A DNA stretch of 54,714 nt. It comes from Sedimentisphaerales bacterium (GTDB lineage: Bacteria > Planctomycetota > Phycisphaerae > Sedimentisphaerales > SM23-30). Of the stretch, positions 4,754-6,106 are shown in pieces. The notes under the pieces are model-generated. The model ran no database searches, had not been told where the DNA came from, and saw only the letters and a program-made list of their open reading frames with translations. The position numbers and the translations under genes are program-made. Where the stretch lies: positions 1-54,714 of the forward strand of contig JANQJS010000010.1 in NCBI GenBank assembly GCA_028281535.1, given 5' to 3'. Position 1 is the first letter of the stretch. Every line of letters starts with the position of its first letter.

Positions 4754-4783
4754 TTGACAAAACAGGGGTAAATCGATTAATAT
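4754..4783 (+). promoter_or_regulatory. promoter of the GAGAG-hairpin RNA region
   Basis: A perfect -35 box TTGACA (4754-4759) is followed after 18 bases by TAATAT (4778-4783). A start near 4790 would put the first predicted hairpin (4796-4811) at the 5' end of the transcript. There is no open reading frame between here and the PEP-CTERM gene at 5291. Confidence 0.6.
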
Positions 4784-4789
4784 TAACTA

Positions 4790-5215
4790 CATAAAGGATA
4801 GTAAGATATCCGATATATGGAGAGAGTAAAAAGAGGAGAGAGCAACAGCCTGCCAAAGAACCGATAGCGGTTTTGGTTATTATTTAAGTGGAGAGATTTA
4901 AATAATAAAATACCCAAGTTCGCACAGGACGTTGAGATACTTTTTTTACTGTGACCCAATTAATGGTTAGTGAATGAGAGCACGCTAACTAACAATTAAA
5001 TATGACTAGGAAATTGTACCTGGGACGGAGAGAGAGAGATTTCCATCCCCTGTGTCTAATAAATTCCAAGAATTAATCACGCGCCGATGATTATGAGAGA
5101 GTCATCGAATATGCGCGAGATAATTTTTCATAGGAATGGGAGAGAGACAAATCACTAATTTCCAAATGAACGTATGATGAATATCCGTTTATACCACCAT
5201 TGGATATTCATTTGT
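4790..5215 (+). ncRNA. candidate structured RNA or long leader with repeated GAGAG loops
   Basis: No gene is present, yet the stretch is rich in hairpins, several with the sequence GGAGAG or GAGAG in the loop. Stems seen by eye: 4796-4811 (5 bp); 4853-4876 (CCG/CGG core, about 9 bp with bulges); 4877-4908 (11 bp perfect, loop GTGGAGAGAT); 4966-4989 (GTTAG/CTAAC, loop includes AATGAGAG); 5022-5049 (GGGACGG/CCATCCC with one mismatch, loop AGAGAGAGAT); 5080-5117 (CGCGC..CGATGA/TCATCG..GCGCG, loop TTATGAGAGAG); 5177-5211 (10 bp perfect ATGAATATCC/GGATATTCAT). Further GAGAG copies lie at 4819-4826, 4834-4841 and 5138-5146. The next gene's ribosome binding site, GGGAGAG at 5281-5287, carries the same motif. 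It may be a stand-alone RNA ending near 5215 or the leader of the PEP-CTERM mRNA. Multiple GGA loops recall CsrA-sequestering RNAs, but this is an analogy only. It does not look like RNase P RNA, tmRNA or 6S RNA. Confidence 0.55.
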
Positions 5216-5290
5216 AAAGATGTAACTTTTGCTCTTAAAAATTGTTTTTATGTGTCTTAGGTAAAATAATCTTATTCTAGGGAGAGAAAG

Positions 5291-6106
5291 ATGAGAGGAA
5301 TGTTGAAAAATTTAGCTTTAATTCTGTGTATCGTGGGAATGACATCTCAATTACAAGCTGGCGTCGCGCAAAACTTTCAGGAATTCTGTATAGATTTCCA
5401 GGCGGATGATTTTGGTACACCTCTGGTAAACGGTCAACATATTGATACATTTAACGGCCCAGGAACGCTCGAATTCGGAAACATCATGTCGATTACTTCC
5501 AATTTGGCAGAACAGCATCTTGGTGCCGCGATTTTTGATTCAACACCTGGCGGCGTAAATTCAGGCCCTGGTGCCCCAGATCCTGATCTTCTCGTTGATT
5601 TAGGCAACATCCTGATTTTGCAGGACGCCGAAAATCCACAGCAAACGGTCCCCGGTATTTTTGATTTGCCAGATGATGACTTTCCAGGCGGAACAATCAC
5701 CGTCCAATTCAATTACCCTGTTTATCTGACCAGCATTGACTTGGTAGATATTGACCAATTATTGGGTGCAGAAGTCACATTATTTGACAGTTTGGGCAAT
5801 ATCAGAAATTATGACGTATCCAACAACTGGACATTTGACATCAATGTTGATGGTCCAAGCGGATATGATACTTTGGATCTGACCACGCTTGCACCTCAAC
5901 AAGGTGAAGGTGGCGGAACCGCAATCGCAACTGAAATTGCCCCATTCGGAGGCTTCAATCCACAAGACGTCGTAGCGATGCAAATTGTTATTGAAGGTTC
6001 AGGTGGCATAGATAACATTAAAGGTACCGTAATCCCAGAACCTGTCACGATGACACTTCTCGGATTAGGTGGTCTGGGAATTCTGTCGAGACGTAAGAAA
6101 ATATAA
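5291..6106 (+). CDS. PEP-CTERM sorting-domain surface protein
   Basis: A secreted 271-aa protein. It starts with a signal peptide (MRGMLKNLALILCIVGMTSQ, cleavage probably after QAG) and ends in a PEP-CTERM sorting signal: PEPVTMTLLGLGGLGILSRR with a final KKI. Such tails are processed by an exosortase/archaeosortase-type transpeptidase and are typical of extracellular matrix or surface proteins. The body is acidic, Cys-poor and beta-rich (DDDFPGGTITVQFNYPVYL), with no catalytic motif that I recognise. ATG at 5291 is preceded by GGGAGAGAAAG, an ideal ribosome binding site with the same core as the loops of the upstream hairpin region. No exosortase gene is in this window. A strong terminator follows at 6136. 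Confidence 0.85.
   Translation: MRGMLKNLALILCIVGMTSQLQAGVAQNFQEFCIDFQADDFGTPLVNGQHIDTFNGPGTLEFGNIMSITSNLAEQHLGAAIFDSTPGGVNSGPGAPDPDLLVDLGNILILQDAENPQQTVPGIFDLPDDDFPGGTITVQFNYPVYLTSIDLVDIDQLLGAEVTLFDSLGNIRNYDVSNNWTFDINVDGPSGYDTLDLTTLAPQQGEGGGTAIATEIAPFGGFNPQDVVAMQIVIEGSGGIDNIKGTVIPEPVTMTLLGLGGLGILSRRKKI

Follow-up and report, generated by a model that had tools for sequence, protein, structure and literature searches.

The leader at 4754 to 5290 and its gene

Positions 4754 to 5290 of the window, which is the whole 54,714-nucleotide stretch of DNA that was analyzed, hold a promoter-like sequence and a structured leader with eight separate GAGAG sites, the last ending at 5286. The gene for a PEP-CTERM (exosortase-sorted) secreted protein follows directly (Table 1). 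The first-pass annotation had placed a TTGACA-18-TAATAT promoter at the start of this region, and that sequence is present; promoter-like matches in the region around it occur at chance level. Judging from the position of this promoter, transcription probably starts near 4790. The same annotation had counted at least seven GGAGAG or GAGAG copies, in agreement with the eight sites found here, and the hairpins that it named were recovered at 4878 to 4907 (12 pairs), 4966 to 4989, and 5080 to 5117, the last two with GAGAG in their loops.

Table 1. Features of the leader region and the downstream gene (window positions)
Feature	Position	Strand	Basis
Sigma-70-type promoter, TTGACA-18-TAATAT (function inferred)	4754..4783	+	Consensus scan, 10/12 matches
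Structured 5' leader, ~500 nt	4790..5290	+	RNA fold z -5.45, 0/100 shuffles
GGAGAGAG, copy 1, close to the transcript's 5' end (GAGAG site 4820-4826)	4819..4826	+	Sequence
GGAGAGAG, copy 2 (GAGAG site 4836-4842)	4835..4842	+	Sequence
12-bp hairpin, loop is copy 3, GGAGAG 4890-4895 (GAGAG site 4891-4895)	4878..4907	+	Fold; loop unpaired probability 1.0
9-bp hairpin, copy 4, GAGAG 4976-4980, in loop	4964..4991	+	Fold; unpaired 0.82-0.89
Weak hairpin with copy 5, GGAGAGAGAGAG 5027-5038 (GAGAG site 5028-5038)	5022..5049	+	Local fold only; unpaired 0.63
Hairpin, copy 6, GAGAGAG 5095-5101, in loop	5080..5117	+	Fold; unpaired 0.72
GGAGAGAG, copy 7, partly paired (GAGAG site 5140-5146)	5139..5146	+	Unpaired 0.28-0.48
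Long perfect hairpin without U-tract	5177..5211	+	Sequence and fold
GGAGAG, copy 8 (GAGAG site 5282-5286), Shine-Dalgarno position, 4 nt before start codon	5281..5286	+	Sequence
PEP-CTERM (exosortase-sorted) secreted protein gene	5291..6106	+	Pfam PF07589, 23.1 bits (cut-off 20.7); paralogue 49% identical

The predicted folding energy of the leader was -130 kcal/mol, compared with -99.6 ± 5.6 kcal/mol for its shuffles. When the RNA was folded locally and the flanks were shuffled with the motifs held fixed, the mean exposure of the GAGAG bases was 0.68 in the leader and 0.49 ± 0.07 in the shuffles, and 0 of 200 shuffles reached the observed value. The recurrence of the motif in loops, which the first-pass annotation considered unlikely to arise by chance, is therefore upheld. 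Several copies do lie in loops as it described, but not all of them, since partial or alternative pairing involves the sites at 5028 to 5038 and 5140 to 5146 and also the two 5' copies. The window contains 9 GAGAGAG (3.3 expected), 7 of them inside the leader stretch. Over the whole window GGAGAG is at the chance level (13 observed versus 13.4 expected), and 6 of the 13 fall within these 470 nt.

The perfect hairpin that was thought to close the region is present, but without a U-tract it is not an intrinsic terminator. It is followed by the ribosome-binding site of the PEP-CTERM gene and then by the gene, and no terminator ends the stretch. Copy 8, in the context GGGAGAG, is likely the Shine-Dalgarno sequence of this gene. 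Because the stretch runs into the PEP-CTERM gene, it reads as a leader. The first-pass annotation had left the choice between a stand-alone protein-sponge RNA and a regulatory leader; the first finds no support, and the second agrees with a position directly between promoter and gene. At the gathering score, Rfam matched two tRNAs only in the whole window, and a search of 12 leader loci at E values up to 0.5 gave no leader match.

DNA homologues of the window leader were not found in 58 relatives, and the multi-hairpin GAGAG leader was present in 0 of the 10 real relatives of the protein identified in GTDB genomes. The paralogue, in the same genome (G000:C27), has a leader (L041) consisting of a promoter, AGAGAGAGAGC, a hairpin, and GCUCUCUUUUUUU, and this arrangement is a predicted intrinsic terminator in which the GAGAG word forms the 5' arm. 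That layout is absent from the window leader, and no part of the window matches the covariance model of the terminator class (R1). One leader only among the ten GTDB homologues (L087) carries GAGAGAG opposite a CUCUCU arm plus a U-tract; this distant homologue shares the layout of the terminator leader of the paralogue, and model R1 gives it no score. The named homologues come from Phycisphaerae or Planctomycetota metagenome-assembled genomes (MAGs), except for L087, which is in a MAG labeled Alphaproteobacteria that may have been wrongly binned or labeled.

The GAGAG word among the PEP-CTERM genes of the genome

The genome contains 57 candidate PEP-CTERM C-termini, and 50 PEP-CTERM genes, with starts assigned by one rule, were compared with 253 control genes taken from 380 kb on two contigs plus the window. 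GAGAGAG was found within 350 nt upstream of 25/50 PEP-CTERM genes and 2/253 control genes (Fisher's test, P = 1.5e-20). GAGAGA followed by a U-run was upstream of 13/50 and 1/253 genes, respectively (P = 2e-10), and the 25 nt immediately before the start contained GAGAG in 14/50 and 10/253 (P = 1e-6). The word is also strand specific. In 54 leaders, a set slightly biased because four were added after the motif had led to them, a count that included overlapping matches gave 49 sense GAGAGAG, where genome-wide density predicts 0.4, and 4 CTCTCTC. Among the first 100 GAGAGAG places listed for the genome, 35 were in PEP-CTERM leaders and most of the others were inside open reading frames (ORFs). 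About half of the PEP-CTERM genes are without the word, and some of these are downstream genes of operons. The motif thus marks the leaders of roughly half of the PEP-CTERM genes of this genome as well as leaders in other genera, as would be expected of a regulatory leader.

The word occurs in three layouts: in the 5' arm of a terminator, at the ribosome-binding site, and in the loops of multi-hairpin leaders. The terminator layout is the commonest. It lies between a promoter-like sequence and the gene, and it consists of a stem, for example ACCCAGCUA / UAGCUGGG, that runs on into GAGAGAG and is followed by UUUUUUU. Copies of this class read CUAGAGAGAG and contain no GGA. In 13 of the 18 leaders flagged as terminator type, a promoter-like sequence (at least 9/12 matches) was located 17 to 59 nt upstream of the word. 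Leader peptides were also sought behind the GAGAG sites, and no consistent start codon or short ORF was found. The multi-hairpin class comprises the window leader and the leader at G000:C60:245066, where GAGAGAG is likewise in hairpin loops; the leader at C23:43642, with several copies, was grouped with them.

Searching by GAGAG terminators led to three further PEP-CTERM genes lying behind them, one of which encodes 49 residues only. The leader L238 (G000:C20:165735), with its own promoter and GAGAGAG terminator, precedes the gene of a roughly 49-residue PEP-CTERM protein that comprises little beyond a signal peptide and the sorting signal. At L207 (G000:C54:52714), a short ORF resembling a signal peptide comes after a promoter and a GAGAGAG terminator; this ORF ends prematurely and is possibly a decayed PEP-CTERM gene. 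In a terminator subgroup of five leaders (L189, L191, L196, L151, and L192), a small conserved GGGA...UCCC hairpin lies upstream of the terminator; this hairpin could be part of the switch, and no antiterminator pairing was established in the subgroup. Two neighboring PEP-CTERM genes (leaders L222, G000:C8:33371, and L169, C8:30398) share a similar GGGUAGAGAGAGG hairpin at the starts of their leaders, one of which is about 830 nt long.

Stem covariation and distribution among genomes

The stem of the terminator class has undergone compensatory change. Across 19 distinct members, double changes occurred in 7 of 11 pairs, with 31 double-changed cells versus 12.3 ± 2.5 in shuffles and a score of 0.435 versus 0.157, in an alignment of distinct covariance-model matches (three other genera included) that leans toward structure because it was fitted to the model. 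Slid registers scored far lower. An independent MAFFT alignment of eleven terminator-class leaders (A3) had double changes in 5 of 11 pairs, with 11 cells versus 4.5. Covariation in the stems had been named in the first-pass annotation as a check on its proposal, and it was found in the terminator class, of which several leaders could be aligned; for the window leader there was no homologous leader to align.

Of 397 genomes of the class searched with the covariance model, 5 had matches, all of them in one family, and the other 392 had none. Seven matches were outside the genome studied here. Four precede confirmed PEP-CTERM genes (two each in G005 and G007), two (in G007 and G001, one each) stand before genes of secreted proteins truncated at the C-terminus by the end of the sequence, and the remaining one, in G009, belongs to a different element. 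Besides the genus of this genome, three others in the family have the terminator layout. An independent pattern search identified multi-GAGAG leaders of PEP-CTERM genes in G001 (L051 and L070) and G005 (L069). An initial search for clusters of three GAGAG within 70 nt, which in G008 mostly returned GAGAGTA-type repeats, missed the window leader because its copies are spread out. Conservation of the GAGAG copies in relatives, a second point raised by the first-pass annotation, thus holds at the level of the regulon. In PEP-CTERM leaders sampled from other families of the order, the word was mostly absent. Since the model matches are confined to one family and the leaders of the wider order mostly do not have the word, these genomes indicate that the GAGAG element is characteristic of the family rather than of PEP-CTERM genes in general.

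Five other genera of the family (L113, L116, L117, L118, and L120) have a conserved intergenic element, CAUUUUCCUCCUCCUUUGGGCGAGAGAGAG...CUUUCUCUCGCUUUUUUU, that combines an anti-Shine-Dalgarno-like CCUCCUCC with a GAGAGAG terminator; upstream of it, L116 has a second copy that is similar. This element looks like a small RNA, and Rfam had no match to it at the two loci searched (L113 and L116).

A proposed shared reader of the word, its alternatives, and known systems

We consider it probable that the stretch is the 5' leader of the PEP-CTERM gene and belongs to a family of GAGAG leaders that marks the PEP-CTERM regulon in a Phycisphaerae-like planctomycete lineage, with a shared trans-acting factor reading GAGAGAG in the RNA. 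The broader proposal, that a single posttranscriptional system serves the exosortase-sorted surface proteome of this planctomycete family through one putative factor and one 7-nt RNA word placed in terminators, ribosome-binding sites, and multi-loop arrays, seems to us about evenly balanced. GAGAGAG would be the recognition word, and its reader is most likely an RNA-binding protein, because the word is also found in exposed loops and at ribosome-binding sites. In the terminator class, where terminators stand just behind promoters, transcription would often abort unless folding were prevented, and a factor bound to the word would keep the terminator unfolded and allow the polymerase to read through (attenuation). 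In the ribosome-binding-site and window layouts, its target would be translation or the stability of the message; in the window leader, the eighth copy, at the Shine-Dalgarno position, is preceded by seven others, the majority exposed in hairpin loops. Occupancy of the word should favor expression in the terminator class and lead to repression at the ribosome-binding site. We infer from these contexts that the word acts as RNA, that one factor serves all layouts, that this factor is a protein, and that control runs in these directions. Several points argue against this model: the window leader has neither a clear terminator nor a homologous counterpart, about half of the PEP-CTERM genes and most leaders sampled in other families of the order are without the word, opposite effects of a single factor would be expected from the terminator-arm and Shine-Dalgarno layouts, and GAGAG near a start codon is itself a weak Shine-Dalgarno sequence, carried there by control genes as well. 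Among known RNA-binding proteins, TRAP (TrpBP, PF02081) was rejected as the reader, with no match in this genome, and so was Hfq (PF17209), with no match in 31 genomes (this one and 30 relatives) in which the controls were matched.

The partner could instead be a small RNA with a CUCUC seed that pairs with GAGAG and thereby opens the arm of the terminator or masks the ribosome-binding site, the loops of the window leader then being kissing sites. A (GA)n word lends itself to such pairing, and several genera of the family have the intergenic element, similar to a terminator, that contains CCUCCUCC and has CUUUCUCUC as its 3' arm. However, that element itself carries GAGAGAG and was not found in the searched parts of this genome, no RNA with a CUCUC seed was identified, and the 31 genomes yielded no Hfq. 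We regard this explanation as unlikely.

GAGAG could also be a ribosome-loading element, a pseudo Shine-Dalgarno sequence or standby site at which a 30S subunit blocks the terminator or starts translation, so that the effect is always activating and no dedicated factor is needed. One sign would then cover all layouts, and the word does sit at the Shine-Dalgarno position in the 14 PEP-CTERM genes counted above. Against this, the terminator-class CUAGAGAGAG contains no GGAG and matches the anti-Shine-Dalgarno sequence at three bases only, no consistent short ORF follows the copies of that class, and the specificity for PEP-CTERM genes is left unexplained. Ribosome loading is therefore an improbable account, a little more so than a small RNA.

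CsrA was the analogy raised by the first-pass annotation, in which the leader would be a CsrA target or a CsrB/RsmZ-like sponge that presents GGA in its loops. The genome does encode a canonical CsrA (91.5 bits), the presence of which that annotation had proposed to check, and 5 of the 7 leader copies upstream of the Shine-Dalgarno sequence read GGAGAG or GGGAGAG, the other two being UGAGAG. The invariant word of the regulon is nevertheless GAGAGAG rather than GGA, the stretch passes into the PEP-CTERM gene with no terminator to close it, and csrA lies between fliW and a flagellin gene (L076, G000:C45). In the fliW-csrA-flagellin arrangement, CsrA is known to be antagonized by FliW rather than by a CsrB-type RNA. 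On the grounds of the regulon-wide word and the fliW-flagellin locus, CsrA was rejected as the main explanation, and we rate it very unlikely. We rate as equally unlikely that a transcription factor reads the word as a DNA operator lying beyond the promoter, a role to which the distance of 17 to 59 nt from promoters would be suited: the word is strongly strand specific, is part of covarying RNA terminators, is displayed in hairpin loops, and is also found at ribosome-binding sites hundreds of nucleotides from the promoter.

PEP-CTERM genes are known for long noncoding upstream regions, and a regulon-wide RNA word with premature terminators is a concrete candidate for their regulator. If the proposed system operates, these bacteria should switch their set of surface proteins jointly at the level of RNA, and the GAGAG word offers an RNA bait with which to isolate the factor. 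The sequence evidence suggests an RNA-level switch for bacterial surface proteins that has not been described before. Our literature search, which extended to open-access and not to subscription papers, found no paper that connects RNA leaders or attenuation with PEP-CTERM or exosortase, and little turned up on the RNA biology of the phylum.

The known control of PEP-CTERM genes, the PrsK/PrsR-sigma-54 system, acts through a DNA element (a sigma-54 -24/-12 promoter plus an activator site) and is limited to Proteobacteria; motifs outside that proteobacterial class were still to be found (Haft et al. 2006, PMC1569441). As in that system, a shared cis element precedes many single PEP-CTERM genes with long noncoding upstream regions, whereas here the promoters appear to be of a sigma-70-like type and the word comes after them, within terminators, loops, and ribosome-binding sites. 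The leaders also resemble the protein-read terminator leaders of LicT/BglG RAT, TRAP, ANTAR, and LoaP in having a short RNA element that overlaps an intrinsic terminator, where a trans-acting factor, in our case a proposed one, sets read-through. RAT and ANTAR sites are structured bipartite elements, and TRAP reads 11 spaced (G/U)AG triplets, whereas here one 7-nt word is in the terminator arm itself. With CsrB/RsmZ sponges and CsrA-bound leaders, the window leader shares purine-rich words repeated in hairpin loops, and it differs from CsrB/RsmZ in its GAGAG instead of GGA, in being a cis leader, in having no terminal terminator, and in the FliW locus that holds csrA. The distal face of Hfq of the Gram-positive type binds (AG)n, a target that resembles the GAGAGAG word, although Hfq itself was not found here. 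A leader RNA read by a trans-acting factor is thus a known kind of control; what appears to be new is the word, the three layouts in which it is used, and the regulon.
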